Source: an uncultured Oscillospiraceae bacterium | GTDB taxonomy: Bacteria; Bacillota; Clostridia; Oscillospirales; Oscillospiraceae | Assembly: GCA_949494735.1 (NCBI GenBank) | Contig: CATABD010000017.1 | Coordinates: 1-38,454, forward strand | Direction of reading: 5' to 3' | DNA: 38,454 nucleotides | Part shown: positions 9,199 through 26,001 of the stretch, one piece after another | How positions within the stretch are numbered: position 1 is the first letter of the stretch | Layout: every line of letters starts with the position of its first letter | Notes under the pieces: generated by a model | Databases searched by the model: none | What the model was told of the DNA's origin: nothing | The model's input: only the letters and a program-made list of their open reading frames with translations | Translations under genes and position numbers: made by a program

Positions 9199-9207
9199 TC
9201 AGCATAT

Positions 9208-9990
9208 TTACGGCGTGTATTCAAACCGACGGTTGAGCCAGCCCTTGCACAGCGGCACCCACGCCCGGCATACCCCGTCCGGGGTCTCCACCTCCTGGGT
9301 ACAGGTGGAAATGCCGTGGGCCCCGCTGCCGAACAGATGGTACTCGAAGGGCACCCCGTGCTTTCTCAGCTCCACCGCCAGCAGCAGGCTGTTTTCCGGG
9401 GGGACGCTGGCGTCCTCCCCGCCGTGCCACAGGAAGGTGGGCGGGAAGTCCGCCGTCACCCGGTCCCAGAGGTGGAGCTTGTCCCGGACGGCCTCATCCC
9501 CGCCGGACACCCAGTCCGCCGACTCCCCGTGGGCAAACCCGCCCTTTGTGGCGATCACCGGGTAGCACAGCGCCAGCGCGTCCGGCCTTGACTCCGGCGG
9601 CAGGCCCAGGACCGGGTCGTTCCACAGCGCCCCCAGGCTGGCCGCCAGGTGCCCCCCGGCGGAAAAGCCCAGCACGGCGATTTTGGACCGGTCGATATGC
9701 CACCCCTCTTGGCGCGCGCGGAGCTGCCGCACCGTCTCCGCCAGCTCCCGCAGAGGGCGGTACTCCCCTGCCTCCCCAGTACAGGAATATTCCAGGATGA
9801 ACACCTGCCAGCCCATGGACAAAAACTCGAAGGCGGGCGGGTCCTTTTCCCGGGGGGAACGCCAGCGGTAGGCCCCGCCGGGGCAGATCACCAGTGCGGG
9901 GCGCACCTTGTGGGCGGCCAGGGTGTCGTAGTCGTCCTGGAGATAGCCCCGCACCTGGGCCCCCAGGGCCTGGAAGGAGATAATCTCCAT
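9208..9990 (-). CDS. Alpha/beta-hydrolase esterase, probable pectin/sugar acetylesterase
   Basis: 260 aa, no signal peptide, so cytoplasmic. It shows an oxyanion-hole-type CPGGAY (36-41), nucleophile elbow G-F-S110-A-G-G, a probable acid in 'WHGGEDASVPPENS' (D193) and catalytic H225 in 'GSGAH'. This order fits the acetyl-xylan-esterase/lipase-like (Aes, BD-FAE type) hydrolases. Its ATG shares one base with the TGA of the upstream dehydrogenase gene (position 9990), so the two are translationally coupled. In a galacturonide operon the likely task is removing acetyl groups from imported oligomers; this is inference. Confidence 0.85.
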   Translation of the reverse strand: MEIISFQALGAQVRGYLQDDYDTLAAHKVRPALVICPGGAYRWRSPREKDPPAFEFLSMGWQVFILEYSCTGEAGEYRPLRELAETVRQLRARQEGWHIDRSKIAVLGFSAGGHLAASLGALWNDPVLGLPPESRPDALALCYPVIATKGGFAHGESADWVSGGDEAVRDKLHLWDRVTADFPPTFLWHGGEDASVPPENSLLLAVELRKHGVPFEYHLFGSGAHGISTCTQEVETPDGVCRAWVPLCKGWLNRRFEYTP

Positions 9991-10847: not shown

Positions 10848-11690
10848 TTACTTCAGGTCGGTGGGTTTCAGGTTGTCCATGTCGTCAAACGCCTGGTTCT
10901 CGCCGCCCATGGCCCAGATGAAGGTGTAGTTGGCGGTGCCGCAGCCGCTGTGGATGGACCAGGAGGGCGAGATCACCGCGTCGAAGTTCTTCATGACCAA
11001 ATGCCGGGTCTCCTCCGGCTGGCCCATCATATGGAACACCACCTGGTCCTCGGGAATCTCGAAGTAGGTGTAGACCTCCATGCGCCGCTCGTGGGTGTGG
11101 GCGGGCATGGTGTTCCACACGGAGCCGGGGGACAGCTGGGTCAGCCCCATGAGCAGCTGGCAGGTCTCCAGCACGTCGGGGTGGATGAACTGGTTGATAA
11201 CCCGCTGGTTGGACTGCGCCGCCTCGCCGCAGGGGCGGTGGTTGGCCTTTTCCATGGTGAGCAGGGTGGTTCTGCACGCCTTATGGGCGGGGGTGGAGGC
11301 CAGGTAGAACCTGGCGGGGTCGGCCCCGTCCACGCTGCCGAAGGACACCTTCTCCGCCCCCATGGCGATATACAGGCAGTCCTCATAGCCCAGATCGTAC
11401 CGGGTCCCGTCCACCTCGATAAACCCCTTGCCCCCCAGGTTGAATATGCCGGCCTCCCGGCGCTCCAGGAAATAGCGGGTGCCGAAGTTGGCCCACACGT
11501 CGATGCCCTTGTCGATGGGCACCGTCTCCTTCACCGGCATGACACCCATCACCACCATGCGGTCCACGTGGGAGTAGGTGGCCTGGACGGTATCCGGCAC
11601 ATAGAGGTTTTGGATCAAAAACTCGTCCCGGAGCTCCTGGGTGGTGTAGCGTTTGACGTCCCGGGGATTTGAGGAATAGCGAATATCCAT
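10848..11690 (-). CDS. kduI: 5-dehydro-4-deoxy-D-glucuronate isomerase KduI
   Basis: 280 aa, the standard KduI length, bicupin fold. H198, H200, E205 and H247 (AHTHERRME and SIHSG) align with the four zinc ligands of E. coli KduI with a constant offset of two. It converts the linear form of 4,5-unsaturated galacturonate to 2,5-diketo-3-deoxygluconate in the cytoplasm. Start ATG 11690 follows GAAAGGAG. It lies 17 nt after the ATPase gene and before kduD, a direct metabolic pair. Confidence 0.96.
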   Translation of the reverse strand: MDIRYSSNPRDVKRYTTQELRDEFLIQNLYVPDTVQATYSHVDRMVVMGVMPVKETVPIDKGIDVWANFGTRYFLERREAGIFNLGGKGFIEVDGTRYDLGYEDCLYIAMGAEKVSFGSVDGADPARFYLASTPAHKACRTTLLTMEKANHRPCGEAAQSNQRVINQFIHPDVLETCQLLMGLTQLSPGSVWNTMPAHTHERRMEVYTYFEIPEDQVVFHMMGQPEETRHLVMKNFDAVISPSWSIHSGCGTANYTFIWAMGGENQAFDDMDNLKPTDLK

Positions 11691-11707: not shown

Positions 11708-12808
11708 TCAGCGGCTCTTTTCCAGAGCCTTTTCAATGACCTCCTCCGTCTCCCCATCAAAGAGGTACACATGCTCATAGGGAATGGAGAAACGGATGGC
11801 GGCGTCGATGTCCGGGGTATCGTGGGGGTCCACCTTCAGGATGGCCTTGTCCTCCCCGGCGGTGATATAGACGTTGGCGTTGTCCCCCAGCATCTCGGTG
11901 AGCTCCACCTGGGCGTCCACCTGATAGGCGTCCTCCCGGGCGCCCAGCTCGATGGACTCGGGCCGGAAGCCGAACACGATCTCCTTCCCCTCATACCGCG
12001 CCGCCTTGTCCCCCAGCCGGGAGGCCACATCCAGCGTATTGGGCCCGAAGGGGATTCTGCCGCCCTTTACCCGGGCGCGGATAAAGTTCATGGGCGGCTC
12101 GCCGATGAAGCCCGCCACAAACACGTTTACCGGGTTGTGGTACAGCTCATACGGGGTGCCGGTCTGCTGGACGTAGCCGTCCTTCATCACCACGATGCGG
12201 TCGGCCAGGGTCATGGCCTCGGTCTGGTCGTGGGTGACGTAGATGGTGGTGGCCCCGGTCTCCCGGTGGATCTGGGCGATCTCGGAGCGCATGGTCACGC
12301 GCTGCTTGGCGTCCAGGTTGCTGAGCGGCTCGTCCATCAAAAACACGCCCACCTTGCGGATGATGGCCCGCCCGATGGCCACCCGCTGGCGCTGGCCGCC
12401 GGACAGCGCCCGGGGCAGCCGGTCCAGGTAGTCGGTGAGGCCCAGGATGCGGGCGGTGTTCTTCACCTTCTCCTCGATGACCTCCTCGTCCACCCCCTGG
12501 AGGGTGAGTCCGAAGGCGATGTTGTCAAACACCGTCATCTGGGGGTAGAGGGCGTAGCTCTGGAACACCATGGCCACCTCCCGCTCCCGGGGGCCCAGCT
12601 CGTTGGCCCGCTTGCCGTTGATGAGGAACTCCCCGTTGGAGATGTCCTCCAGCCCGGCGATCATCCGCAGCGTGGTGGATTTCCCGCAGCCGGACGGCCC
12701 GACAAAAACGATGAACTCCCCCTTGTCGATCTCCAAGTTGAAGTTGTGCACCGCATGAAAGCCGTTGGGGTAGATCTTATTGATGTCTTTCAGGGTTAAA
12801 TACGACAT
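11708..12808 (-). CDS. UgpC/MsmK-type sugar ABC transporter ATP-binding protein (first of two)
   Basis: 366 aa ATPase with Walker A GPSGCGKST (37-45), signature LSGGQRQR (135-142), Walker B VFLMDEP (155-161) and a C-terminal TOBE/OB region ('IVFGFRPESIELG'), the layout of MsmX/UgpC ATPases that serve CUT1 sugar importers. ATG 12808 follows AAGGAGAC. It is the first gene of the kdu operon, which has no permease. It could serve the permeases encoded at 22123-24090, or distant ones. A second such ATPase is at 17761. Confidence 0.93.
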   Translation of the reverse strand: MSYLTLKDINKIYPNGFHAVHNFNLEIDKGEFIVFVGPSGCGKSTTLRMIAGLEDISNGEFLINGKRANELGPREREVAMVFQSYALYPQMTVFDNIAFGLTLQGVDEEVIEEKVKNTARILGLTDYLDRLPRALSGGQRQRVAIGRAIIRKVGVFLMDEPLSNLDAKQRVTMRSEIAQIHRETGATTIYVTHDQTEAMTLADRIVVMKDGYVQQTGTPYELYHNPVNVFVAGFIGEPPMNFIRARVKGGRIPFGPNTLDVASRLGDKAARYEGKEIVFGFRPESIELGAREDAYQVDAQVELTEMLGDNANVYITAGEDKAILKVDPHDTPDIDAAIRFSIPYEHVYLFDGETEEVIEKALEKSR

Positions 12809-12891
12809 ACTCTTTGTCTCCTTACACTTGGATTTATGGCCCGCGCCGGGCGGGGCGGGTATTCCGGCCCCCTCAGCCCACAGGATAGATA
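12809..12891. other. Divergent regulatory interval between the kdu operon and the AraC gene
   Basis: Part of the 152-bp intergenic region. The araC promoter is clear on the plus strand (see 12892). On the minus strand no confident -35/-10 pair was found for the kdu operon, which fits an activator-dependent promoter but does not prove it. Confidence 0.4.
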
Positions 12892-12920
12892 TGGACAAAA
12901 CCGTCGAAACACGGTATAAT
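12892..12920 (+). promoter_or_regulatory. Strong sigma-A-type promoter of the AraC regulator
   Basis: TGGACA (12892-12897), 17-bp spacer, TATAAT (12915-12920), 41 bp before the ATG at 12961. The spacer carries a small imperfect inverted repeat CCGT..ACGG, a possible operator. Confidence 0.8.
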
Positions 12921-12960: not shown

Positions 12961-13734
12961 ATGAACAACATCCTCTATGTGGGCAAGCACGCCCTTACCT
13001 GGACGGTCTCCCGTCACATCCATCAGAGCTGGGAGCTGATTTTCTGCACCGGCGGCAGCGGCGAGATGATTTTTGACGGCAGGACGCTGGAATATGGCGT
13101 CAACGACGTGGCCGTCGTCCCCCCTATGGTCCCCCACTCCAACGCCAGCCGGGAGGGGTTCACCAACATCCACATGAACCTGACCGATCCCGCCCTCACC
13201 TATCCCGAGCCCCTTATCATCCGGGCCGATTCCAACGGCTTTCTCCGGGACGCGTTCACCGCCGCCTTCTATTACTGGTCGGACACCTCCGCGGAATATA
13301 CCCTCCTGCCCCTTTACGGGCAGCTGATTGTGGCCTATCTCACCAAGTACCGCTCTGTCCGCCGCCACAGCGAGACCGTCCAGCAGATTGAGGACAATAT
13401 CCTCCAGCACTATCCCGACTGCACCTACGACCTGAACGCCTACCTGGGCTCCCTCCCCTTCAACACCGAATACCTGAAAAAGATGTTCAAAAAGGAGACC
13501 GGCCTCACGCCCCTCCAGTACCTGACCGACCGGCGGCTGGAGAACGCCGCCAGCACCCTGTCCACCTTCTGGGGAAAGGGAAACATCTCGGAGACCGCCC
13601 GCATGTGCGGCTTTGCCGACCCGCTGTACTTCTCCCGGCTGTTCAAAAAGAAGTACGGCGTCTCCCCCCGCAGCTACACCCCGGAAGCCGCCCCGGCCCC
13701 TGCCGGGCCGGACGAGGTGAAAATCATGGTGTGA
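12961..13734 (+). CDS. AraC family transcriptional regulator, probable pectin-locus activator
   Basis: 257 aa. The N-terminal cupin sensor (about 15-85, 'IHQSWELIFCTGGSGEMIFDGRTLEYGVNDVAVVPPMVPH') is followed by two C-terminal AraC helix-turn-helix motifs (about 150-245). The second ends 'ISETARMCGFADPLYFSRLFKKKYGVSPRSY', the AraC signature. ATG 12961 follows GAAAGGAG. It lies between, and divergent from, the two pectin operons, so regulation of both by a galacturonide-derived inducer is the natural inference. The last 11 bases overlap the 3' end of the convergent GH105 gene. Confidence 0.92.
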   Translation: MNNILYVGKHALTWTVSRHIHQSWELIFCTGGSGEMIFDGRTLEYGVNDVAVVPPMVPHSNASREGFTNIHMNLTDPALTYPEPLIIRADSNGFLRDAFTAAFYYWSDTSAEYTLLPLYGQLIVAYLTKYRSVRRHSETVQQIEDNILQHYPDCTYDLNAYLGSLPFNTEYLKKMFKKETGLTPLQYLTDRRLENAASTLSTFWGKGNISETARMCGFADPLYFSRLFKKKYGVSPRSYTPEAAPAPAGPDEVKIMV

Positions 13735-14854
13735 GCCGCTTGACCTCCGTATAGGCCAGCACAAAGGGGGCCACCCCCTTGGCGTCGTTGGCCACCACCG
13801 GCTCGGAGATGTAGTATTCGTAAGAGCCGTCCCGCCGGCGGTTGTCCTCCGGGCCCAGGCCCGCCACCAGGCAGATGCCCCCCAGGTCCAGCCCGTCCTC
13901 GGTAAAGGTCAAATACTTCTCCACAATGCCGTCAAAGGTCCTCTGGCCCTTGGCGGCATATCCCTTGTCCAGCGCGCCCAGCCGCGCCCCCTTGAGCATG
14001 GCGTAGGCCATCATGGCGCTGCCGCTGGTCTCCAGGTAATTGCCCGCCCGGCCTCCCTGGTCGGGCACCTGCCAGTACAGGCCGGTGTCCGGGTCGGCGT
14101 AGCGGCTAGCCTGCCCCATCAGCTCGTCAAAGATGGCGGCCAGGCTGTCCCGGCCCTCCCCCTGGGGCAGGATGTCCAGCAGGTCGGCCAGGGCCACCGC
14201 GAACCAGCCCAGGGAGCGCAGCCAGAAGTTCTTGGAGCGCCCCGTCACGGGGTCCGCCCAAAAGGCGGTTCTGGACGCGTCGTAGCCGTGGAAGTACAGC
14301 CCCTTTTCCTCCGAGAACATTCGCGCCCGGACATTCTTGATCTGGCCCACAATATCGGAGTAATCCCCGGCGCCGAAGTGCTTTTCGTACAGGGCGTAAA
14401 AGGGCTGGGCCATGTAGATGCCGTCCAGCCACACCTGGTTGGGATAGATGGCCTTGTGCCAGAAATTCCCCTCCACGGTGCGGGGCTGCTCCTCCAGCCG
14501 CGCCCGGAGGAAATCCGCCGCCCGGCGGTATTTTTCTTCCCCGGTACGGCCGTACAGGGCAAAGAGCACCCGGCCCTCGTTGATGTCGTCCAGGTTGCGG
14601 GCCTCGGGCCTAAAGGTGCGGATGGAGCCGTCCTCCCCCACAAAATGGTCCACGCAGGCTTTCACAAACCGGAAGTACCGGGGGTCGCCGGTGAGGCTGT
14701 CCATCTCCATCAGGGCGGTGAGCATGCAGCCGTCGATATAGTTCCAGGAGGCGGGCTTGCCCTCCCGGATTTTCTCCAGGTTCCAGGCGGTGCGCTCCGG
14801 GGTGGAGCGCTCCACCAGCTGGAGTACAAAGTCGTCGATTTTTTTATAATCCAT
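13724..14854 (-). CDS. GH105 unsaturated rhamnogalacturonyl / galacturonyl hydrolase (YteR/YesR-like)
   Basis: 376 aa, cytoplasmic, the family-typical length with an (alpha/alpha)6 barrel. D144 in 'QVWLDGIYMAQPF' corresponds to the catalytic Asp143 of B. subtilis YteR, and D89/D90 in 'NLDDINEGR' to Asp88. It removes the 4,5-unsaturated uronic acid from the non-reducing end of oligomers made by pectin lyases, giving the substrate of KduI. The start shares one base with the GH28 stop (14854), so the pair is coupled. The C-terminus overlaps the araC gene by 11 bases. Confidence 0.94.
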   Translation of the reverse strand: MDYKKIDDFVLQLVERSTPERTAWNLEKIREGKPASWNYIDGCMLTALMEMDSLTGDPRYFRFVKACVDHFVGEDGSIRTFRPEARNLDDINEGRVLFALYGRTGEEKYRRAADFLRARLEEQPRTVEGNFWHKAIYPNQVWLDGIYMAQPFYALYEKHFGAGDYSDIVGQIKNVRARMFSEEKGLYFHGYDASRTAFWADPVTGRSKNFWLRSLGWFAVALADLLDILPQGEGRDSLAAIFDELMGQASRYADPDTGLYWQVPDQGGRAGNYLETSGSAMMAYAMLKGARLGALDKGYAAKGQRTFDGIVEKYLTFTEDGLDLGGICLVAGLGPEDNRRRDGSYEYYISEPVVANDAKGVAPFVLAYTEVKRLTP

Positions 14855-16425
14855 CAGGTTTCCTCAAAGTCCTGGGCGGACACGTCCGGGCAGTGCTCCG
14901 CCGTCAGCCCCCTGCCCTCCACGCCGGACAGCCTCACGTTTTTCACCCGAACCCGTTCCACATTGTCCAGGTACAGCCCCAGCCGGCACCGCGCCTCATT
15001 GTGGTTGCGCATGGAGGGCATACCGGGCTTGGCGTCCTGGGCAAAGGCCACGGAGATGTTCTCCAGCTCCACCCGGCCGATGGGGCTTTCCGGCAGGCCG
15101 TCGATGTAGCAGGCGGCCACCTCCGCCCCCGTGCACTCCATGTTGCGGAAGGCGAAGGAACCCATGCGGGGCGTCCTGTCGTCCACCGGCAGGGGGTCGC
15201 GGCGCCATACATACTCCGAGTAGCGGTCCGGGTCGCAGCAATTGTACCACATGTTGATGACGATGGGGGTGAGGACCTTGTCCATGCGGATGTTGTCGAA
15301 CAGCACGTTGTCGATCACGCTGTCCTTCCCCCTCCCCCGGCGGGTCTTGATGCGCAGGCCCCGGTCGGTAGCGTGGAAATAACAGCTTGTGACGCTCAGG
15401 TTGCGGATGCCCCCCGACAGCTCGCTGCCCAGGGTGACGGCCCCATGGCCGAATTCCATCAGGCAGTTGCGGATGGTGTGGCGGTCCGCCGGGGTCTTGT
15501 ACTTCCGGGCCATGTCGATCTTGCCGGATTTCACCGCCACGCAGTCGTCCCCCACGGAAAAGCGGCAGCCGATGATATCCACCCCGTCGCAGCTCTCCGG
15601 GTCGATGCCGTCGGTGTTGGGGCTGTCCTTGGGGGCGGTGACGAAGCAGTCCAGCATGGCAAAGTCCCGGGAATAGAAGGGGTGGACATGCCAGGACGGG
15701 CCGTTTTTCACCGTCACGCCGTGCATGGTCACGTCCTGGGTGTGGTTGAGAAACACCACCCTGGGCCGCTTGGCGGGGAAGCTGTCAAAATCCCCCCACC
15801 AGTCCCCGTTCCCGCCGTTTCCGTCGATGGCCCCCCGGCCCACGATGGCGATATCCTCCGCGTAGGACGCCTGGAGCAGCGACTGGTAGCAGTCCAGCTC
15901 CTGGCCCTCGAAGCCCGCCTGGAGGGTCTCCTCCCCGGTCACCGGGTCCGTGCTCACGCTGGGGATAACGGGGTAGCGCCCCCGGTCGGCGGAGCCCAGC
16001 AGAGCAGCCCCCTCGTCCAGATCCAGGGTGATGTGGCTTTTCAGGCACAGGGGCAGGGTGAGATAGGTCCCCGCCGGGAACCACAGCCGGCCCCCCTCGG
16101 GCAGAAAGCTGATGGCGGCCTGGATGGCGGCGGTGTCCTCGTGGACGCCGTCCCCCGCCGCGCCAAACTGCCGCACATCCACACAGCAGGCCTCTGTCCT
16201 GGTGGTAAACCGGACGTTTTCCTCCCCGCCGCCTTCGAAGCGGACGGCCACAGCGTATCCTGTCCCAGGCCGCAGCCCGAACAGGGAAAAGACGTTGGTA
16301 TTCTGCGCGGAGAGCCGCTCCTCCCCGTCCACCAGAACGCGGTAGCTTTCCTTGGCATAGTACGGCGCGCCCCCGTCCAGCTCAAAGCACACGGAGCTGC
16401 CGCCGCAATATAGAATTTTTATCAT
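14854..16425 (-). CDS. GH28 polygalacturonase, cytoplasmic exo-type
   Basis: 523 aa, no signal peptide. Residues 1-77 form a beta-rich, fibronectin-III-like domain, and the right-handed beta-helix starts at 'VDVRQFGAAGDGVHEDTAAIQAAI'. The family motifs are all present: NTDGID (270-275, D272), GDDC (292-295, D293/D294), GHG (326-328, H327) and RIK (358-360). It hydrolyses alpha-1,4 galacturonide bonds. The FN3-like N-domain is known in exo-polygalacturonases, and the lack of an export signal suggests action on imported oligomers. Start ATG 16425, 10 nt after the 16436 gene. Confidence 0.93.
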   Translation of the reverse strand: MIKILYCGGSSVCFELDGGAPYYAKESYRVLVDGEERLSAQNTNVFSLFGLRPGTGYAVAVRFEGGGEENVRFTTRTEACCVDVRQFGAAGDGVHEDTAAIQAAISFLPEGGRLWFPAGTYLTLPLCLKSHITLDLDEGAALLGSADRGRYPVIPSVSTDPVTGEETLQAGFEGQELDCYQSLLQASYAEDIAIVGRGAIDGNGGNGDWWGDFDSFPAKRPRVVFLNHTQDVTMHGVTVKNGPSWHVHPFYSRDFAMLDCFVTAPKDSPNTDGIDPESCDGVDIIGCRFSVGDDCVAVKSGKIDMARKYKTPADRHTIRNCLMEFGHGAVTLGSELSGGIRNLSVTSCYFHATDRGLRIKTRRGRGKDSVIDNVLFDNIRMDKVLTPIVINMWYNCCDPDRYSEYVWRRDPLPVDDRTPRMGSFAFRNMECTGAEVAACYIDGLPESPIGRVELENISVAFAQDAKPGMPSMRNHNEARCRLGLYLDNVERVRVKNVRLSGVEGRGLTAEHCPDVSAQDFEET

Positions 16426-16435
16426 GGTATAAACC

Positions 16436-17074
16436 TCACTGGGCCGGTTTTTGGGCCGCGTCGCGGACGATGCGGACGACAGCGTGCTTCATCTGGATGA
16501 GGAGCAGGTCGAACCCCAGGCAGAACAGCCCGAAGAACACCGGCTCCACCCCCAGGACCACCCGGTCCGCCACCCCGGTGATGCGGACGGCGGCCAGGTT
16601 GACGGCATTGTACAGGGTATAGACCAGGAACAAAACCACATAGCCGTACAGGATGTTGAGAAAAAGCCCGGAATAGGTCTTGCGGGTCACCATCATCCAG
16701 CGGGCGTTCTCCCCCTTCGTCTTTTCAAAAAAGCGCAGGACGGGGTTGGTCATCAGGTCGGTGACGACGCCCAGGGCCATGCCGGTGACCGCCAGCAGGT
16801 CCAGCTCATTGGTCAAAAACCCGCCCAGCCCCCAGATGAAGAAAAAACACACCGCCCCGGCGAACCAGAACTTGATGAACAGCATCTTCACCCAGTCCGC
16901 CACCTTCATCCTGGGCCCGGAGCGGTAGGCGCGCAGCTCCGCCTCCGATACCGGGGGCGAGTTCTCCTCGCTGGCGTTCACCAGGTCGTCCACCGCCTGG
17001 GTTTTCAGCCTGTAGTATTCAGACTGTCCCTCTATTTCCGATTTTTGCATTCGGTTTTTACGTTTTTTGCCCAT
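16436..17074 (-). CDS. Uncharacterised 4-TM membrane protein in the pectin transport operon
   Basis: 212 aa, family not recognised. The N-terminal ~55 residues are very basic then acidic (MGKKRKNRMQKSEIEGQ...). Four predicted membrane spans follow at about 63-85, 90-110, 128-155 and 170-195, with a polar middle loop 'RFFEKTKGENARWMMVTRK'. Start ATG 17074 follows GAGGAGAGG. It lies between the 17150 membrane gene and GH28. The context suggests a role in galacturonide uptake or its control; function unknown. Confidence 0.78.
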   Translation of the reverse strand: MGKKRKNRMQKSEIEGQSEYYRLKTQAVDDLVNASEENSPPVSEAELRAYRSGPRMKVADWVKMLFIKFWFAGAVCFFFIWGLGGFLTNELDLLAVTGMALGVVTDLMTNPVLRFFEKTKGENARWMMVTRKTYSGLFLNILYGYVVLFLVYTLYNAVNLAAVRITGVADRVVLGVEPVFFGLFCLGFDLLLIQMKHAVVRIVRDAAQKPAQ

Positions 17075-17094
17075 GGCCTCTCCTCTGTTCGGTA

Positions 17095-17127
17095 ATTTGG
17101 GAGGCCCAGCCGCCGGGCCTCCCAAAT
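17095..17127. repeat. Intra-operon stem-loop (13-bp perfect stem)
   Basis: ATTTGGGAGGCCC (17095-17107) pairs with GGGCCTCCCAAAT (17115-17127). There is no T-tract, so an RNA-processing or mRNA-stability element is likelier than a terminator. Confidence 0.6.
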
Positions 17128-17149
17128 CCTGTTTGTCCGGGGCGGGGCA

Positions 17150-17764
17150 TCACACCTCGCCGGAGATGTCAATGGCCTCCAGGTCGCCGTTGTCCCCCAC
17201 GTCGACGGACGTCTTGATTTTCCGCAGCCACTTGGAGTACACCGGCAGCAGCGCGGTCAGCACGATGGCGGCGGCAAGGATGCCAATGTGTATGCGCAGG
17301 TAATACTCGGCGTACGCGATATAAATGGTATTCTCCGTCACCACAATGGGGTTCTCCGGGCGGCTGATGGCAGCCCAGATGGTGCTGATATAATAGGCGT
17401 CGGCAAAGATGACAATGCCCAGCATGGCGAACATGAGAACCATCATGGGTATATTGGGCTTCTTACGGTAGGGGAAGGCGTTGAGAAAGCACATGAAGGA
17501 CAGCATGGAGAACAGCATGGTGGCAAAGCCAGCCAGCCCCATGCCCGGGCCCTGGATACGGGCGGTGGTGTCCGAAATGTGCATCAGGTTCAGGGAGTAG
17601 AACACAAACGCTGCCACCAGCACCGCCAGGGGGATCATCTGGGGGCGGCGCTTGATGGCCACCAGGAATTTGCGCCGGCGCTCTTTCAGCCAGCCCATAA
17701 CGGTGCGGCGGTGCTGGAGCTCCAGCTCTACCATGCCCTTGTTATTCCTGTTTTCCACTCTCAT
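17150..17764 (-). CDS. Uncharacterised 4-TM membrane protein, downstream partner of the sugar ATPase
   Basis: 204 aa, family not recognised. A basic N-terminal 42 residues (MGWLKERRRKFLVAIKRRPQ) are followed by spans at about 43-63, 76-97, 105-127 and 158-176, and a hydrophilic acidic tail. The outer loop after span 3 is long (about 30 residues). The start overlaps the ATPase stop by four bases (ATGA, 17761-17764) and GGGAGGTG precedes it, so expression is coupled to the ATPase. Topology and the 'F.FYSLNLMHISD' end of span 1 resemble the 18856 and 19344 proteins; distant relationship is inferred. Confidence 0.8.
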   Translation of the reverse strand: MRVENRNNKGMVELELQHRRTVMGWLKERRRKFLVAIKRRPQMIPLAVLVAAFVFYSLNLMHISDTTARIQGPGMGLAGFATMLFSMLSFMCFLNAFPYRKKPNIPMMVLMFAMLGIVIFADAYYISTIWAAISRPENPIVVTENTIYIAYAEYYLRIHIGILAAAIVLTALLPVYSKWLRKIKTSVDVGDNGDLEAIDISGEV

Positions 17765-18843
17765 TCACCTCCCCTGATGGCGTTGGTGGTCTCCTTGTCG
17801 AAGAAATGCTTGCGCTCAAAGGTAAAGGACGCGGTGTCCCCCACCTTGTAGTCCCGCCAGCCCTTGAGCTTGGCGGAAATCTTGGCCCCGGCGGTTTTCA
17901 CGCCGCCGATATGGCCGTGGACCAGGGTATTCATGCCCAGGTTCTCGTTGGAGGATACCGTGACGGGCACGTCCGCCCCCTCCACGATATTCTCCGGGCG
18001 GACACCCAGGGTGATCTCCTTGTTCTGGTAGGCCCGCAGGATGCGCTGCTCCTCCGGGGTGAGGGACACCTGGAATCCTGCGCCGGTGAGCTTACCGCCG
18101 CCCACCCGCACGTTGTAGAAGTTCATGGGGGGCAGGCCGATGAAGCTGGCCACAAACACGTTGGCCGGGCTGTCGTACAGCTCCAGGGGGGTGCCCACCT
18201 GCTGGACATGGCCCATGGACATACACACGATACGGTCCGCCAGGGTCAGCGCCTCGGTCTGGTCGTGGGTGACATAGAGCATGGTGGCCTTCAGCCGTTT
18301 GTGTAGCAGCAGGATTTCCCGCCGGGTGGCGCCGCGCAGCTTGGCGTCCAGGTTGGACAGCGGCTCGTCAAAGAGAAATACCTTGGGGTTGCGCACGATA
18401 GATCGGCCCATTGCCACCCGCTGGCGCTGACCGCCGGACAGCTGGGCGGGCTTCTTGTTGAGCTGGCTGGTCAGGCCCAGTATGTCCGCCGCCGCCATGA
18501 CCTTTTTGTGGATGACGTTGGGGTTCTCCTTGCGCAGGGTAAGGGAGAACGCCATATTCTCATAGATGGTCATATGGCCGTACAGGGCGTAGCTTTGGAA
18601 TACCATGGCCATATCCCGGTCCTTAGCAGGGGTGGCGGTGATGTCCTTTCCGTCCAGCAGCAGTTTGCCGGCGGAGATGTCCTCCAGCCCGGCCACCATG
18701 CGCAGGGTAGTGGACTTGCCACAGCCGGAGGGACCCACCAGCACAATGAGCTCGCCGTCCTTCACGTCCAGATTGAAGTCAAAGACCGCCTGCACATGAT
18801 TGTCGTATATCTTGTCGATATGCTGCAAATTCAGTGTCGCCAT
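17761..18843 (-). CDS. UgpC/MsmK-type sugar ABC transporter ATP-binding protein (second of two)
   Basis: 360 aa. Walker A GPSGCGKST (37-45), signature LSGGQRQR (135-142), Walker B VFLFDEP (155-161), H-loop in 'YVTHDQTEA' and a TOBE-type C-terminal domain ('ITLGVRPENIVEG'). It lies in the transport operon with the permeases (22123, 23026) and binding protein (20045), so it is their likely ATPase. Its stop overlaps the next start by four bases. It is 12 nt downstream of the 18856 gene. Confidence 0.94.
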   Translation of the reverse strand: MATLNLQHIDKIYDNHVQAVFDFNLDVKDGELIVLVGPSGCGKSTTLRMVAGLEDISAGKLLLDGKDITATPAKDRDMAMVFQSYALYGHMTIYENMAFSLTLRKENPNVIHKKVMAAADILGLTSQLNKKPAQLSGGQRQRVAMGRSIVRNPKVFLFDEPLSNLDAKLRGATRREILLLHKRLKATMLYVTHDQTEALTLADRIVCMSMGHVQQVGTPLELYDSPANVFVASFIGLPPMNFYNVRVGGGKLTGAGFQVSLTPEEQRILRAYQNKEITLGVRPENIVEGADVPVTVSSNENLGMNTLVHGHIGGVKTAGAKISAKLKGWRDYKVGDTASFTFERKHFFDKETTNAIRGGE

Positions 18844-18855
18844 GTCCCTGCCTCC

Positions 18856-19347
18856 TTATACACCCTGGGTCCTCAGAGACTTCAGATGTGCCTCCAGCTC
18901 GCCGCAGCGGATGAAATTCACCACCGCCGCCGCCAAAAGGCAGGCCGCGGAGGCAATGAGATAGACCAGTACCCGGATGAACTGTCCGTCCTGCATGACC
19001 ACCACGTTCTCGCCGTTCACCAGGGTAGCGGCGGCGTGGGCCCGCACGGGGATGATGAAGATGCGCACAATCTGGAGCGCCCCAATGGCGGCCAGCAGGT
19101 AGGAATAATTCCTTTTGTAATTCTTCACACCCTCCGAGGACAGGAATACCGCAAGCATGAACACCAGATTGTACACGATGGAGGCGCCGATGAGGATGTT
19201 GTAATAGTAGGTGTTCACATCCGATTTATAGATGCTGACAAAGTAAAACACATCGAACAAGATGCCCAAGATGGCCAGGTTGGACGAGAGCGAATTCTTG
19301 ATGAACCGCATCCGGTCACGTTGGATGGTACGTTCTTCAGCTGTCAT
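18856..19347 (-). CDS. Uncharacterised small 4-TM membrane protein in the pectin transport operon
   Basis: 163 aa, family not recognised. Spans at about 22-40, 47-70, 80-100 and 126-146, with an outer loop after span 3 that carries 'LVNGENVVVMQDGQ'. Start ATG 19347 is set by GAGGAGGAG just upstream and overlaps the stop of the 19344 gene by four bases; the longer in-frame extension lies inside that gene and is rejected. Span 1 ends 'DVFYFVSIYKSD', similar to the 17150 protein. It is directly followed by the ATPase gene. Confidence 0.8.
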   Translation of the reverse strand: MTAEERTIQRDRMRFIKNSLSSNLAILGILFDVFYFVSIYKSDVNTYYYNILIGASIVYNLVFMLAVFLSSEGVKNYKRNYSYLLAAIGALQIVRIFIIPVRAHAAATLVNGENVVVMQDGQFIRVLVYLIASAACLLAAAVVNFIRCGELEAHLKSLRTQGV

Positions 19348-19934
19348 CCGGCGCTCCTCCTCCCCTCTTCCACCAGCCCGGCCTCCTCTTTCATCAGCCG
19401 CACCTTCCATACCGTGTTGGCTGCCAGCAGCGCGCACACCGCCAGCAGCAGGCCGAACACAAAATAGTGCAGGTCGAACCAGAAGGTGGACTCGGTATAC
19501 AGTGTGCCCCACATCTCGGCGTGCTCTTTGAGGGCGGCAAAGTCCACCTGGAGGAACTGGGCCTTGAAAATTTCAATGTAGGTATGGGCAAACACGGCGT
19601 TATACACCCCCGCCGCCACAAACAGGCCGGTGGCCGCGTAATTGCCGATATAGTACCGGCGGCGGCTGTGGGTGTTGGTGACAAACAGCAGCACCCCCAG
19701 CAGGATCTGCCCGATGCTGTACATCAGGAACATGCGGTTGAATTCCTGCATGTTATAGTAGACGATGGAGCCGGACACATCGGTCTGGAAGGGATTGCTG
19801 GGATTGCGCATGGTGTCGTAGAGGCTGTCATACAAATCGGTCATAATGCCCAGCGCATAGAGGAAAAAGATCGCGCTTGTGATGACAGCCGCCAGACAGA
19901 GGATCTTCTGCGCGGTCATTTGCTTTTTATACAT
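19344..19934 (-). CDS. Uncharacterised 4-TM membrane protein after the binding protein
   Basis: 196 aa, family not recognised. Spans at about 10-31, 67-88, 97-117 and 155-175. The first outer loop (about 32-66) is polar and aromatic (DLYDSLYDTMRNPSNPFQTDVSG...), the last ends near residue 154, and the C-terminal tail is charged. ATG 19934 follows GGGAGGAGG. It is separated from the binding-protein gene by a GC-rich stem-loop and overlaps the next gene by four bases, so it belongs to the transport operon. Confidence 0.8.
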   Translation of the reverse strand: MYKKQMTAQKILCLAAVITSAIFFLYALGIMTDLYDSLYDTMRNPSNPFQTDVSGSIVYYNMQEFNRMFLMYSIGQILLGVLLFVTNTHSRRRYYIGNYAATGLFVAAGVYNAVFAHTYIEIFKAQFLQVDFAALKEHAEMWGTLYTESTFWFDLHYFVFGLLLAVCALLAANTVWKVRLMKEEAGLVEEGRRSAG

Positions 19935-20044: not shown

Positions 20045-22039
20045 TCACTTCAGGGTCTCGTAATAGGCGATGTCCTTCTCCCAGGCGCTCTGCTTGATGG
20101 CCAGATACTGCTTGCCGGACCAGCTGCCGGCCACGTTGTCGGCGGTGCCGACGGCGTCCTGCATGGCCGCGTTGGTATAGCCGTTGACGATGAGCTCCAG
20201 CAGCATATTGCCGCCGTCCTTCTGCTGGTTGAAGCGGTCGGTGAGCTCGGTGTAGCCGTTGATGGTGTCGTTCTCCACCTTGGTGGTGGGCAGGACGGTG
20301 GGAACGCTGGTGTACCAGGGATTGGAGGCCAGGGCCAGCTCGGGGTGCTTGATGGTGCCCAGGCCGATGGCAGTGGAGATGTAGCCCGCGCCCTCCTTGC
20401 CGACCTCGTGGGTGCACTGGTACTCAAAGGCCTGGCTCTTCAGGAAGGACAGGGTGGAACCCAGATACCACCTGGCATAGTTGGTGTAGTTACCACCGGC
20501 CAGATCCCACAGCTCCTTCTCGCAGGCCTCGGAGATCTTGGGCATTTCGTTGCCGTTAAACAGGAAGGTCTCGCTGGAGCGCCACGCCTCGGGGCCGTAG
20601 CTCATGAGGATCTGGCCCTCCTCGGAGTAGGCGAAGTCGATCAGGGCCAGGCAAGCGTTGAGCTTGTCGGCGCTGTCGCCCACGCCGGACTTGGAGATAC
20701 CCCAGCCGTCGGTCTTGACGGAACGCCAGGACTCGGTAAAGCGCATGAACTGCTCGCCGGTGCCGTCGTCCCAGCGGGCCACGGGAACCATGACGGCCAT
20801 GTACTTCTCGCCCTCATCGCCGTCCTTGTTCAGCTTGGTGGCGTTCATCAGGGTCTGGGTCTGGTTGTAGTCGTAGTGCATGAAGCCCAGGTCGTTCTCC
20901 AGATAGGTGCCGGAGCTCTCCTCAGAGCCGTCGATGAAGGCCTTGGAGAGCAGGCCCTCCGCCGCCATGGCGTGCATCCGCTCCAGGGCCTCGTAGGTCT
21001 CTTTCTCCTGGCGGGCGTCGTGGAGCTTGTTGTCATTGCCCACGTACAGGTAGTCCTGGCGGGACTCCAGGCCGCGCACGCCGAACAGGGTGCCGGCAAA
21101 GCGGAACATATCAACCCGGCGCTGGTTGTTGTTGTCCTCGCGGGAGAACAGGCCCTGGACGGCGTCGGCGCCGTTGAGGGTCTGGGGGTTGGCCACCACG
21201 CAGCGCAGCAGGGCCACCAGCTCGTCGGCGTCCCAGGCGGCGTTCTGGCCCACGAACAGGTCGGCGCGGTCGGTCCCGTAGTAGCCGTTATACGCCTCGT
21301 CGATGTAGGTGCGCAGCATGTTGACGGCGGCCACGCCGTCCATGGAGCCGGCGGCGTTCATCTTCTCAATGATGTTCCCGCCCGCGTCGTAGTCCTTGGT
21401 GACCTTCTCCACGCCGGAGCCGTCGGCCTTGACCACGTCGATCTCCACCTTGCCGGAAGTGGGCATATAGGGCTGGTAGGAGGGGGCGGCGGTCTTGTTG
21501 CTGGCGCCGGCGGCAAACTCGCCCTCGCCGTTGAGCAGCTTCTCCACCCAGTCGGTGCGCATCAGGGGCATACGCTCGATGTCGTCCACGCCGTCAAAGT
21601 AGGGGCTGAAGTAGATGGCGCCGGTGTCGGTGTTGCCGGTGATGGACATGCGCACGATGGGGTTGGTCTCCAGGTAGGCTTTGAAGTTGGGCATCAGGTC
21701 CAGGTACTCGGCGATGTTGACCATATTGCCGGCCTCGCCGTTCTCGGTGAGCTTGGTGGCGGTGCCGCTGACCATGTCCACCTCGTTGAGCCGCTCCTTC
21801 CAGAAGTCGAACTCCTTGGAGGCGCTGTTATAGCCGGTGGCCATGCGCAGCTTGGTGCCGGGGGCGTAGGTCAGGCCCTGGGGCTCGGGGGCCTGGCTGG
21901 GCTCGGTCCCGGCGGGGGCGCTGGACTGGGCGGGGGGATCGGACTGCTGGACCTGGACGCTGGGGCCGCAGCCGGACAGAAGGGCGGCGGTCATCACGAT
22001 GGCAAGGAGCACCGCGATCAGGGACTTATACTTTTTCAT
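20045..22039 (-). CDS. Lipoprotein extracellular solute-binding protein of a sugar ABC importer (LplA/YtcQ-like)
   Basis: 664 aa. A signal peptide MKKYKSLIAVLLAIVMTAALLSGC has a lipobox with lipid-modified C24, then an S/P/E/Q linker (25-50), then a large family-1-type binding fold rich in W, Y and D. It should capture oligogalacturonides outside the membrane. It is longer than usual for CUT1 binding proteins (about 420-550 aa), as seen in the LplA/YtcQ group for pectin oligomers. Start ATG 22039 follows AAGGAGG. It is 83 nt downstream of the second permease gene. Confidence 0.93.
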   Translation of the reverse strand: MKKYKSLIAVLLAIVMTAALLSGCGPSVQVQQSDPPAQSSAPAGTEPSQAPEPQGLTYAPGTKLRMATGYNSASKEFDFWKERLNEVDMVSGTATKLTENGEAGNMVNIAEYLDLMPNFKAYLETNPIVRMSITGNTDTGAIYFSPYFDGVDDIERMPLMRTDWVEKLLNGEGEFAAGASNKTAAPSYQPYMPTSGKVEIDVVKADGSGVEKVTKDYDAGGNIIEKMNAAGSMDGVAAVNMLRTYIDEAYNGYYGTDRADLFVGQNAAWDADELVALLRCVVANPQTLNGADAVQGLFSREDNNNQRRVDMFRFAGTLFGVRGLESRQDYLYVGNDNKLHDARQEKETYEALERMHAMAAEGLLSKAFIDGSEESSGTYLENDLGFMHYDYNQTQTLMNATKLNKDGDEGEKYMAVMVPVARWDDGTGEQFMRFTESWRSVKTDGWGISKSGVGDSADKLNACLALIDFAYSEEGQILMSYGPEAWRSSETFLFNGNEMPKISEACEKELWDLAGGNYTNYARWYLGSTLSFLKSQAFEYQCTHEVGKEGAGYISTAIGLGTIKHPELALASNPWYTSVPTVLPTTKVENDTINGYTELTDRFNQQKDGGNMLLELIVNGYTNAAMQDAVGTADNVAGSWSGKQYLAIKQSAWEKDIAYYETLK

Positions 22040-22122: not shown

Positions 22123-23013
22123 TTACTCCTTCACGCCGCCCACGTTGACGCCCTTTGCAAAATACTTCTGGATAAAGGGGTAGATGATGAGAATGGGGAC
22201 GATGGAGCACACGATGAGGGCGTAGATCACCGAATCGGCGGCAAAGGCCTCGTTCCAGCCCGCCATGGCCTCCGGGTCGGTATACTGCTCCAGCCGGAGG
22301 CGGATGAACACCTGGAGCGGGTGCTCGTTGGAGTTGGAGATCATCTGCCGGGCCCAGAAGTATCCGTTCCAGCGGGAGATGGCGAAGAACAGGGCCACGG
22401 TGGCGATGGTGGACTTGCTCATGGGGATGTACACCTTGCTGAGCACCTGGAACTCGGTGGCGCCGTCCACGACGGCGGCCTCCTCAATCTCGGAGGGGAC
22501 GCCCTCGAAGGCGTTGCGCAGCAGGATGATGTTCATGGCCGCCATACCCATGGCGATGACCACCAGCCACTTGTCGTCGGTGATGCCCGCGGCGGTGAAC
22601 ACCTTCTTGGTGGCCAGGTAGTTCAGGTACTGGGGGACGATGCCCGCGGAGAACCACATGGTGAACACCAGGAAGAAGTTGAAGAACTTGCGGAACAGCA
22701 GCCGCCGCTTGGACAAGGCGTAGGCCCCCAAAATGGCGGTGAGCATGGACCACAGCGTGCCGTAGAGGGTGAGGAACAGGGTGTTGGAATAGGCGTTCCA
22801 GAACATGTTGTCCCCGAACATCCTGGCAAAGGCGTCGAACTGGACGTCCTTGGGGAAGAGCACGACGGAGCCGTACTCTACGGCGGAGCGCCCGCTGATG
22901 GACGCGGACACCGCGTACACAAAGGGGTACAGGCAGCACAGGGCGAACACCGTGAGCAGCGTGTAGCTGATGATCTTGAAAATCAGCTCGGAGGTTTCAA
23001 GCTTTCGTTTCAT
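22123..23013 (-). CDS. Carbohydrate ABC transporter permease (LplC/YtcP-like)
   Basis: 296 aa, six membrane spans, the standard size. The cytoplasmic coupling loop 'EEAAVVDGATEFQVLSKVYIPMSKS' (about 177-201) is the EAA motif of sugar permeases, and the C-terminus 'QKYFAKGVNVGGVKE' is typical of the YtcP/LplC type. ATG 23013 follows GGGAGGG and is 12 nt after its partner. It forms the channel with the 23026 permease for the lipoprotein at 20045. Confidence 0.95.
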   Translation of the reverse strand: MKRKLETSELIFKIISYTLLTVFALCCLYPFVYAVSASISGRSAVEYGSVVLFPKDVQFDAFARMFGDNMFWNAYSNTLFLTLYGTLWSMLTAILGAYALSKRRLLFRKFFNFFLVFTMWFSAGIVPQYLNYLATKKVFTAAGITDDKWLVVIAMGMAAMNIILLRNAFEGVPSEIEEAAVVDGATEFQVLSKVYIPMSKSTIATVALFFAISRWNGYFWARQMISNSNEHPLQVFIRLRLEQYTDPEAMAGWNEAFAADSVIYALIVCSIVPILIIYPFIQKYFAKGVNVGGVKE

Positions 23014-23025: not shown

Positions 23026-24090
23026 TCAGTACAGCGACGTGTTGGATGCCTTGCGGGCGATGGTGTTCGCCCCGATCACCAGCAGCATACCAATGACGTT
23101 GTTCATCATCTCCGCCGCCGCGATTCCGGTGCCCGCGCTGGTCCCCGTGCCGGCCATGCCGCTGATCCGGTTGGCAAAGGTGGACACCACATCGGCGGTG
23201 ACATAGGTGTTGGTGTTGTAGAGCAGCAGCACCTTTTCATAGCCGATATTCAGCAGGGAGCCGATGCGGGTGATGAGCATGATGACAATGGTGGACAGGA
23301 TGCTGGGCAGCACCACATAGCGCATTTGGGCCATCTTGTCCGCCCCGTCAATCTGGGCGGCCTCATAGCTGGTGGGCGAGATGGCGATGATGGCGGCGAA
23401 GAATACGATGCTGTCATAGCCCGCGCTCTCCCAGATTCCGCTGATCTGATAGATGGAGCGGAAAAACGCCGGGTTGTTCAAAAGCCCCGCGTTGGCCACC
23501 TCCGGCGTGACGAACCCCAGCCCGGACAGCGCCTGGCTGACAATGCCCATGCCGGTGGTCAGCGAGCCCTGCTTCACCAGCATGGTCACCAGGGACGTCA
23601 TAACCACGGTGGACATGAACTTGGGCAGGTAGGTGAGCACCTGGTAGACGCTCCGGGCCGCGTTGGAGCGGATCTCATTGAAAAACAGCGCCAGGATGAT
23701 GGGGATGGGGAAGCCGAAGCACAGCCCGTAAAAGCTGAGGATAAAGGTGTTCCTCATCGCCCTCCAGAAGTCGGTGGAGAGCTGGTCCCCGCCTACCAGC
23801 AGCCGTCTGAAGTACGAAAAGCCGGAAAACAGCTGCTCGGAAACGGGCACAACGCTGTCCGACACCTTAAAGCATCCCAGCAGCTCGTACATGGGAAAAT
23901 AGCGCCAGAACAGGAACACCAGCAGCATGGGGACCAGCATCACATACAGCCGCCAGTCCTTTATGATGGCCGCGCCCACGTGCCGCCAATAGTGCTTTTC
24001 CACATCGTCCCGGACCGCCTGCTCCGGGCTGATCCGGTAGGCGCCGCTGGCATGGTCGAATTCAAGGAAATCCGCCGCCCTATCTTTCAT
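23026..24090 (-). CDS. ABC transporter permease (LplB/YteP-like)
   Basis: 354 aa. A cytoplasmic N-terminal extension of about 45 residues precedes six spans. The EAA motif 'SYEAAQIDGADKMAQMRYVVLP' (241-262) marks the ATPase contact. The family-typical beginning 'IIKDWRLYVMLVPMLLVFLFWRYFPMYE' is clear, although the N-terminal extension is longer than in YteP. ATG 24090 follows AAAGGAGGAGG. It pairs with the 22123 permease. Confidence 0.95.
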   Translation of the reverse strand: MKDRAADFLEFDHASGAYRISPEQAVRDDVEKHYWRHVGAAIIKDWRLYVMLVPMLLVFLFWRYFPMYELLGCFKVSDSVVPVSEQLFSGFSYFRRLLVGGDQLSTDFWRAMRNTFILSFYGLCFGFPIPIILALFFNEIRSNAARSVYQVLTYLPKFMSTVVMTSLVTMLVKQGSLTTGMGIVSQALSGLGFVTPEVANAGLLNNPAFFRSIYQISGIWESAGYDSIVFFAAIIAISPTSYEAAQIDGADKMAQMRYVVLPSILSTIVIMLITRIGSLLNIGYEKVLLLYNTNTYVTADVVSTFANRISGMAGTGTSAGTGIAAAEMMNNVIGMLLVIGANTIARKASNTSLY

Positions 24091-24108: not shown

Positions 24109-24672
24109 TTATTCCTCCCGCGCGTGCAGGCGCAGGAGGTAGTGTTTTTGATCCTCATAGACACCGTCCAGCTTTCGCGCTATCCAGATGATCACAAAGG
24201 TAAATAAGAGGGAGAGGCTGTCCGTGGTGAAAAAGCCCACCACGCTCCCCGGCCCGGCCCCCAGCAAAAGGGCCATAGCCGCCCTCCCCGCCTGCATCAG
24301 CGCCTGCACCAGCAGGGGGAACACCAGGGACAGGTGCCCCGTGCGCACCCGCTCCTTGCCCAGCGCCTTGAGCAGCGCCACCGCGGCCACCGAGAGCAGG
24401 TTGCCCCCGCAATAGATCACGTACTGCTCCGGGGTTGCCCCGGAAAACAGGCAGAACACCAGCCCTGCCTCCGCCGCGTGGATGGCCCCCCACACCCCCC
24501 AGCGCATGTACACAATAGAGGTGATGGCCGCGGCCAGCGACACGGTGAAGGGCTGGCCGGGGAACCACCAGTTGGCGGCCCTGACGATGATGAACTCGAA
24601 CACGGCCAGCGCCAGCCCCAGCAGCGTCAGGTCGATGGCCCGGTATTCCTTCCACGTTCGCTGCCGTTTCAT
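24109..24672 (-). CDS. Integral membrane protein, ECF S-component-like, first gene of the transport operon
   Basis: 187 aa with about five to six spans. Short interspersed loops ('ITSIVYMRWGVWGAIHAAEAGLVFC', 'CGGNLLSVAAVALLKALG') and the C-terminal 'SLLFTFVIIWIARKLDGVYEDQKHYLLRLHAREE' resemble small ECF S-component-type proteins, but I could not place it in a named family. It is 18 nt upstream of the LplB-like gene and behind the AT-rich promoter region, so it is co-transcribed. Function unknown. Confidence 0.72.
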   Translation of the reverse strand: MKRQRTWKEYRAIDLTLLGLALAVFEFIIVRAANWWFPGQPFTVSLAAAITSIVYMRWGVWGAIHAAEAGLVFCLFSGATPEQYVIYCGGNLLSVAAVALLKALGKERVRTGHLSLVFPLLVQALMQAGRAAMALLLGAGPGSVVGFFTTDSLSLLFTFVIIWIARKLDGVYEDQKHYLLRLHAREE

Positions 24673-24959: not shown

Positions 24960-25122
24960 AGGCGTCGTTTGAAAATTGGCAATATGCCCAGCGGCGAGGA
25001 ATTTTTTCGCCGGGCAAGGCGGTTTGGCGCAGAAATACTTTGTGTATTTCAAAGCAAATCAACGCGGCTCGGCGGAAAAAGGCCCGCCGCTTGGGCGTGT
25101 TGACCATTTTCAAACAAGCCCT
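24960..25122 (+). repeat. MITE-like palindromic repeat, copy A
   Basis: 163 bp with terminal inverted repeats AGGCGTCGTTTGAAAAT (24960-24976) and ATTTTCAAACAAGCCCT (25106-25122), a TA at each edge, and an inner GC-rich core (GGCGAGGAATT...CGCCGGGCAAGGCGG...CGCAGAAAT). The same plan recurs at 36222-36379 (inverted) and 37020-37183. It lies between the pectinesterase promoter and its ribosome site, so it forms part of the 5' leader. It encodes no plausible protein. Confidence 0.75.
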
Positions 25123-25143
25123 AATCAAAAAGGAGGGATTTTC

Positions 25144-26001
25144 ATGCTCCACACCAATCCCGGCCAAAATCTTCAGCAGGTCCTGGACGGTGCCGCCCCC
25201 GGCTCAGAGCTCCGGCTTGCCCCGGGGGAGTACCGCATCAAATCCGCCATCTTCACCCCGGGCCTGACCATCTGCGGCGCAGGGGCCGGCCGCACCCGGA
25301 TCGTCTGGGACGACTACGCCAAAAAGCGGGACGGGCGGGGGGTGGAACTCAATACCTTCCGCACCTGGACCATGGCGGTGTGCGCGGATCACGTCACCAT
25401 GCGGGGGCTGTCCATCGTCAACGGCGCCCTGCGCCCGGAGGAGCGGGGGCAGGAGGTGGCGCTGAGCGTATGCGGCGACGATTTTTTCATGGAGGACTGC
25501 CGCCTCGCCTCCACCCAGGACACCCTGTTTTTAGGCCCACTCCCCCCCGACCTCATCCGGCGGTACGACGGCTTCCTCCCCAGCTTCCTCCGGCTGGACA
25601 AGCCCTGCCGCCAGCGCTTTTCCCACTGCCTTATCGAGGGTACGGTGGACTTCATCTTCGGCTGCGGGGACGCGGTATTTGAGGCATGTGAGATCCGCTC
25701 CCTCCGGGACGCCCGGAACGTGGGCTATACCGCCGCCCCCGCCCACAGCCGGTCACAGGCCCGGGGATTCCGCTTCCAGAACTGCCGCTTCACGGCGGAG
25801 GACGGGGTGGAGCCCGGCTCCGTCTATCTGGCCCGGCCCTGGCGGGACTATGGGCTGTGTACGTTCCAGAATTGTACCTATGGCCCCCACATCTCGCCGC
25901 TGGGCTTCGACAAGTGGAGCGGCACCGGGCGGGACCGCACCGCCCGGTTCTGCGAAACTCCCCCGGTTGAGGGACGGGCAGGCTGGGTCAAAACGGTCTG
26001 A
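25144..26001 (+). CDS. CE8 pectinesterase (pectin methylesterase), cytoplasmic
   Basis: 285 aa, no signal peptide. The beta-helix motifs of pectin methylesterases are present: GQEVAL (102-107), QDT with D126, EGTVDFIFG with D169 (165-173) and ARPW with R231 (230-233). These provide the acid, nucleophile and Arg that demethylate polygalacturonate. QDT and EGTVDFIFG are about 20 residues further apart than usual, so there is an insertion of roughly that size (131-160). ATG 25144 follows AAGGAGGG; earlier in-frame codons lie in the repeat and are rejected. It probably demethylates imported oligomers. Confidence 0.94.
   Translation: MLHTNPGQNLQQVLDGAAPGSELRLAPGEYRIKSAIFTPGLTICGAGAGRTRIVWDDYAKKRDGRGVELNTFRTWTMAVCADHVTMRGLSIVNGALRPEERGQEVALSVCGDDFFMEDCRLASTQDTLFLGPLPPDLIRRYDGFLPSFLRLDKPCRQRFSHCLIEGTVDFIFGCGDAVFEACEIRSLRDARNVGYTAAPAHSRSQARGFRFQNCRFTAEDGVEPGSVYLARPWRDYGLCTFQNCTYGPHISPLGFDKWSGTGRDRTARFCETPPVEGRAGWVKTV

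Follow-up and report, generated by a model that had tools for sequence, protein, structure and literature searches.

CUT1 sugar importers are taken to require two permeases, an ATPase and a binding protein. For Bacillus subtilis YtcQP-YteP with the ATPase MsmX, a role in polygalacturonan and rhamnogalacturonan uptake is given in the accessible part of one account (PMC5730181), and a second account models this pectin importer as MsmX2-YtcQP-YteP, with no further subunits in the sections available (PMC11466899). The Sphingomonas alginate importer (AlgQ2/AlgM1-AlgM2/AlgS-AlgS) and the Streptobacillus Smon0123 system each have two identical ATPases, and the portion of the source at hand describes no small membrane subunits for either (PMC5717064). 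Here we describe a locus of an uncultured Oscillospiraceae bacterium in which the genes of a related importer are accompanied by genes for five small membrane proteins, designated A to E. It lies on contig CATABD010000017.1 (GenBank assembly GCA_949494735.1), analysed from position 1 to 38,454 (the window, 38,454 nucleotides). Some bacteria, many of them dwelling in animal guts, carry such a pectin-sugar importer with extra small membrane proteins; as far as the accessible text of the literature searched goes, no description of such subunits was found. A-D, and E too in the pectin version, probably serve as small membrane subunits dedicated to a CUT1 importer of the alginate type (AlgM1-AlgM2) that takes up uronate oligosaccharides.

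On the minus strand the genes run in the order E, PermB, PermC, SBP (the solute-binding protein), A, B, ATP1, C, D, GH28, GH88/105, ATP2, KduI and a KduD-type gene (Table 1). Two permeases and a solute-binding protein are common to this locus and the B. subtilis importer, and in Protein Data Bank (PDB) searches PermB, PermC and SBP matched AlgM1, AlgM2 and AlgQ1. As expected for an AlgM1M2-type CUT1 importer, the permeases are related to AlgM1 and AlgM2 and ATP1 is a MalK-type ATPase with an OB region and intact motifs (Pfam ABC_tran and OB_MalK above cut-off, TOBE_2 below); the AlgQ/LplA-type lipoprotein was recognised through AlgQ1 with partial cover and matched no Pfam solute-binding family. 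MsmX of B. subtilis serves several importers. PermB carries an N-terminal extension of about 40 residues that lies outside the AlgM1 match, is conserved in relatives (partial only in L098) and is a further candidate contact site. The locus also exceeds the set of one binding protein, two permeases and one ATPase: the conserved unit includes A-D as well as E, and a second ATPase, ATP2, lies nearby. An initial annotation made from the sequence alone had outlined the block around A-D correctly but had missed E and ATP2, which make the unit larger.

Energy-coupling factor (ECF) importers combine two different ATPases with small membrane subunits, and E, with about six spans, recalls these. Unlike ECF importers, however, the locus has CUT1-type permeases and a binding protein, and E matched no ECF family in Pfam, nor did a PDB sequence search give a match for it as a candidate S-component. 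The AlphaFold2 model of E had a mean pLDDT of 86.3 and a pTM of 0.84.

We assessed the conservation of the block in 64 loci: the window, 30 loci from a contig scan with C, 16 from a search with A and 17 from a second family of the class, to which 15 genomes contributed. The A search covered 300 genomes of the window's family, of which 19 matched; the three that added no locus were the window genome and two apparently corresponding to L004 and L016. Every locus was detected with A, C or D; metagenome assemblies make up most of the records, and the 64 are not independent, some being near-identical strains or two copies of one genome. The order PermB-PermC-SBP-A-B-ATP1-C-D was complete in 54 loci and cut by contig ends in the other 10, with a largest gap of 436 nt between block neighbours. 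E was found in 53 loci and precedes PermB wherever DNA covers that place; the other 11 have no DNA there (the E of L076 sits in L078).

The initial proposal of close linkage around ATP1 held for three junctions. In the window, A and B share an ATGA (19344-19347), ATP1 and C share another (17761-17764), and B is separated from ATP1 by 12 nt, but C and D lie 75 nt apart when D starts at ATG 17074 (GAGAGG upstream); D and the GH28 gene are 10 nt apart. Such overlaps and the 12-nt gap are typical of the loci, with median gaps of -4 nt for A-B, 12 for B-ATP1 and -1 for ATP1-C (to the first possible start). The ratio of nonsynonymous to synonymous substitution rates (dN/dS) of A-E against three relatives was 0.08-0.30. 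In the other family of the class, identity to the window fell to 23-31% for A-E and stayed at least 65% for ATP1 and at least 53% for the permeases. The intact order and low dN/dS indicate, therefore, more than a chance grouping. Narrow distribution would suit A-D being unrelated membrane proteins that hitchhike in the operon, but with no interruption in any of the 64 loci, low dN/dS and recurrence of the arrangement beside another locus, we regard this as extremely improbable.

Records of the C scan span Oscillospiraceae, Lachnospiraceae, Erysipelotrichaceae, Solobacterium and others, and C is 57-85% identical between Oscillospiraceae, Lachnospiraceae and Erysipelotrichaceae records (L002-L031). 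In the A search, A was missing from five other listed genomes of the window's genus. The distribution is patchy, perhaps through horizontal transfer. D was matched in four of 291 genomes of the class (the window's own, G873, G946 and G773). The G946 match, outside the 64 loci, is a 3-kb contig with an ATPase end, C and D (L073), and the G773 match, inside a permease-like open reading frame (ORF), was rejected as chance. In a further search, D was matched in 16 of 121 genomes, in G1012 only at an E-value of 0.002. Two whole-block copies with equal profile scores (L111 and L112, G1079:C1) lie about 20 kb apart on one contig. In L016:10696-11334, a stop lies inside the frame taken for D, and this row was left out of the alignment.

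The block is separable from the pectin enzymes. A GH28 match occurred in 50 of 63 loci, and L061 and L063-L065 show the enzymes rearranged around an unbroken block. L099 and L101 are stand-alone units, ATP2-E-PermB-PermC-SBP-A-B-ATP1-C-D, among unrelated genes (e.g., proline-synthesis types, an aldolase and a nicotinate phosphoribosyltransferase). Single-sequence enzyme profiles detected no GH28, GH105, KduI or pectinesterase match within 33-34 kb around each; one short-chain dehydrogenase at the stand-alone loci weakly matched KduD (31.9 bits). The unit is therefore able to stand without the enzymes, with ATP2 accompanying it there. The L099 genome contains another block, L098, which is accompanied by pectin enzymes. 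L099 itself contains two SBP genes (7157-9565 and 13145-15553), one before A and one after D.

In genome G473, the pectin block and a diverged paralogue (L155) occupy separate contigs, the paralogue having the order PermB-PermC-SBP-A-B-ATPase-(C position)-D. PermB of L155 is 49% identical, and SBP, A, B and D were matched with E-values of 1.5e-82, 2e-8, 3.5e-7 and 3e-17; its ATPase is nearer ATP2 than ATP1. Next to D come a DUF4962 protein and then a protein with Hepar_II_III_C and Alginate_lyase domains. No E and no second ATPase were matched within 25 kb on both strands of the paralogue (L155, L157). The order 4TM-4TM-ATPase-4TM-4TM (4TM, four-span membrane protein) thus recurs beside another uronate-type lyase locus, and the recurrence that the initial annotation had proposed to check was found both there and across families. 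A pectin-only system was ruled out by L099 and L101, which lack the enzymes, and by L155, with its other lyases.

Among 39 other genomes searched with the L155 PermB, the nearest relatives were 49% identical and belonged to carriers of the pectin block. Ten control loci of LplB/AlgM1 type (34-42% identity to L155 PermB) had no match to A-D, and the nine that could be assessed lacked any small ORF with at least three spans in the 7 kb following PermC; in the tenth, L182, the contig stops directly behind PermC. By the same count, L155, L076 and L061 have four such ORFs each. A-D as a general companion of LplB-type importers was rejected on these controls. When 150 genomes of the window's family were searched with the window PermB, seven matched at an E-value of 1e-60 or better and six of these have A; in the seventh, G486 (65% complete), the contig ends about 1.6 kb after PermC, before the place of A.

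ATP1 and ATP2 form separate clades, four mislabelled rows aside, and the motifs are intact in both (ATP1 rows L011, L060 and L062-L065 and ATP2 row L051 were left out by an automatic start/length rule). Many loci have ATP2 close to the block. In 15 genomes of the family of G873, it was on the same contig as the block, at most about 8 kb from E, in 11, on another contig in three, and not found in one. A mixed ATP1/ATP2 pair is possible, and ATP2 may be a shared MsmX-like ATPase. Two ATPases at pectin loci, with ATP1 in a clade of its own and wrapped by A-D, would also suit a division in which A-D and ATP1 form a separate complex of the ATP-binding cassette (ABC) type (a transporter, or a mechanical or sensory machine) and the MsmX-type ATP2 drives PermB-PermC-SBP. 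We judge this unlikely: the only ATPase matched within 25 kb in the paralogue occupies the ATP1 position beside the permeases, ATP1 carries the OB domain of CUT1 ATPases, window A-D have no permease-type domain match in Pfam, and all 64 loci have PermB-PermC or are cut.

The topology of A-E was predicted from hydropathy. A-D have four hydrophobic spans each, as the initial annotation had stated, with the N-terminus inside by the positive-inside rule. The outer loop after span 3, measured between 19-residue span cores, is long in two of them (A, 39 residues; C, 36) relative to B (24) and D (20), also in line with the first description. The span-1 pattern reported for three of the proteins is present in A, B and C, but loosely and with differing spacing, and would be no proof of kinship. 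Profile-profile comparison of A-D gave no significant mutual relation (positive control PermB/PermC, probability 93.6%). The best pair, B/C, reached a probability of 5.9% (E-value 0.006, 69 columns in register), and a weak match of C to PermB (E-value 0.0086, 29 columns) was not counted. The kinship suggested among the four was not borne out, and a single paralogous 4TM family of A, B and C found no significant support.

No Pfam or NCBIfam cut-off was reached by window A-E; NCBIfam BasA against A, with an E-value of 0.086, fell far short of the family cut-off. PDB profile searches gave best E-values of 1.2 (A), 0.88 (B), 0.0035 (C, a designed helical protein), 0.54 (D) and 0.098 (E), none below 0.001. 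One-by-one scans of alignment members against Pfam gave weak matches spread over many unrelated membrane families, which we take as composition. The best among the families listed (the first 25 of 39 and the first 25 of 45 in two of the scans) were DUF4199 for A (2.7e-4, one of 46 members), DUF7937 for B (8.9e-5, two of 41), AA_permease_2 for C (3.7e-4, one of 33), MreD for D (7.8e-4, one of 41) and DUF2231 for E (0.0023, one of 34), and none of those listed was matched by more than seven members. DUF624 (YesL), a family of membrane proteins of Bacillus sugar loci, was absent from the matches of window A-E (E-values up to 5) and from the families listed for alignment members. A known family for A-E was rejected for lack of a convincing Pfam, NCBIfam or PDB match, and the initial picture of four unrecognised minus-strand membrane proteins around a sugar ATPase stands, with its coordinates and order. 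Of the two outcomes named beforehand as refuting that picture, a convincing match to known unrelated families and a gene order confined to this genome, neither came about.

Conservation of A-E is biased towards the cytoplasm and the membrane. Summed over the five proteins, the top 15% of conserved sites took in 70 of 340 positions in the cytoplasm, 59 of 418 in the membrane and 13 of 204 on the outside, and mean conservation was lowest in the outer loops of each. Deep alignments contained 46 of 60 A, 33 of 65 C and 24 of 63 D sequences; the analysis by region used all rows of the profile comparison. The residues invariant in A are Q9, Q63 (which the prediction puts just outside span 2), a group in the loop that joins span 2 to span 3 (R91, R92, Y94, Y95 and N98) and two tail residues (K177 and E184). 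In C, the cytoplasmic N-terminal segment has four invariant residues (E28, R31, V35 and K38), the spans have five (I44, F80, L84, L88 and P174) and the tail has one (T185). An outer-loop motif of A is nearly fixed in close relatives and lost in the distant family.

This pattern suggests partners located in membrane and cytoplasm, which would suit ATPases and permeases, rather than sensing of outer sugar. Because conservation is lowest in the outer loops, accessory subunits touching permeases and ATPases are favoured over outer sensors; the accessory-subunit idea of the initial annotation is the best reading, but the outer-face sensing it also considered is disfavoured. A membrane sensor, with A-D/E reporting transporter state or outer sugar to a regulator or to enzymes, would have an AraC-type regulator nearby and conserved cytoplasmic segments that could serve as output surfaces, and four of 33 C members weakly matched 7TMR-DISM_7TM in Pfam (best E-value 6.4e-4). 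With the outer loops least conserved, no signalling domain at cut-off in the window proteins and no pectin enzyme in view at the two stand-alone loci, we consider such a sensor very unlikely.

Subunits of the importer are also to be distinguished from assembly or localisation factors that would cluster the importer and the lyases at the membrane, outside the finished transporter. Small membrane proteins encoded beside the core by overlapping or closely spaced genes would fit such factors, and nothing specific contradicts them, but every complete locus keeps the whole set, which suits subunits no less well; we rate this alternative as rather improbable. Several points weigh against the subunit reading itself. 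Contact between A-D and the importer is presumed from the genes. A-D appear unlike each other and unlike any known accessory subunit, and the closest characterised pectin importer seems, in the accessible parts of its descriptions, to have only a binding protein, two permeases and MsmX (PMC5730181, PMC11466899). The proteins are rare: A was found in one of 398 Bacillota genomes, the window's own, and in the 19 of 300 within the family (D in one of 199 and E in one of 149 Bacillota genomes, again the window's own; SBP in three of 299, its own and two weak matches near 1e-5). The paralogue is known from one genome, and the small multi-span protein at its C position had no significant match to C. 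Gene-distance correlations of 0.78-0.98 would also follow from plain shared inheritance. In A, eight of 76 outer sites were among the top sites, compared with five of 76 membrane sites; with eight of its 29 top sites on the outside, A is a partial exception.

Table 1. Features of the importer locus and its surroundings in the window.
Feature	Coordinates	Strand	Description
E	24109..24672	-	Membrane protein of 187 aa with about six spans; opens the block; no family
PermB	23026..24090	-	AlgM1/LplB-type permease; PDB AlgM1, E-value 2.1e-57 over residues 42-353
PermC	22123..23013	-	AlgM2/LplC-type permease; PDB AlgM2, E-value 2.4e-78
SBP	20045..22039	-	664-aa lipoprotein, AlgQ1-like; PDB AlgQ1, E-value 2.1e-7, partial cover
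A	19344..19934	-	196-aa 4-span protein
B	18856..19347	-	163-aa 4-span protein; ATG 19347; 4-base overlap with A
ATP1	17761..18843	-	MalK-type ATPase, ABC motifs and OB domain intact; Pfam ABC_tran, OB_MalK
C	17150..17764	-	204-aa 4-span protein; shares four bases with ATP1; N- and C-terminal cytoplasmic segments conserved
D	16436..17074	-	212-aa 4-span protein; cytoplasmic N-terminal segment of about 68 residues, conserved in parts
GH28 polygalacturonase-type enzyme	14854..16425	-	Pfam Glyco_hydro_28, E-value 1.6e-35
Unsaturated uronyl hydrolase type (GH88/GH105)	13724..14854	-	Pfam Glyco_hydro_88, E-value 5.3e-82
AraC-type regulator	12961..13734	+ (opposite strand)	Pfam HTH_18, AraC_binding
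ATP2	11708..12898 (ORF limits)	-	Second MalK/MsmX-type ATPase; start near 12808 suggested by relatives
KduI-type isomerase	10848..11690	-	Pfam KduI, E-value 1.7e-26
Pectinesterase	24976..26001	+	Divergent from operon; Pfam Pectinesterase, E-value 4.1e-29

The divergent pectinesterase gene adjoins E and was seen in 20 of 30 loci of the C-based scan, in L004 on the operon strand. The window SBP lacks, in frame, about 52 residues found in all 26 aligned relatives (junction near 21830), and in the relative L002 a short direct repeat flanks these residues' coding sequence. The gap is either a real deletion or an assembly collapse.

From the genes we infer a physical association of the small proteins with the importer, their part in tethering or gating, the substrate, and the pairing of ATP1 with ATP2. 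The lipoprotein SBP would capture oligogalacturonides and pass them to the PermB-PermC pore, with ATP1, a MalK-type ATPase that may pair with ATP2, powering transport. Around this pore the small proteins would pack, their conserved cytoplasmic tails and loops touching the permeases and the ATPase, and these contacts may keep the dedicated ATPase bound or gate its activity; that A-E hold or gate it is a guess. More tentatively, and with considerable doubt, the locus could represent a new class of ABC importer with two AlgM-type permeases, the non-identical ATP1 and ATP2 and five small membrane subunits, about ten different proteins in all. The one-ATPase, four-subunit version beside alginate/heparin-type lyases could then be a simpler form.

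If dedicated subunits are indeed encoded here, some importers of acidic oligosaccharides would possess accessory subunits of their own, four or five extra membrane proteins at pectin loci. Five nameless protein families, A-E, would gain a testable role, and their genes would become markers of one importer type instead of scattered hypotheticals.

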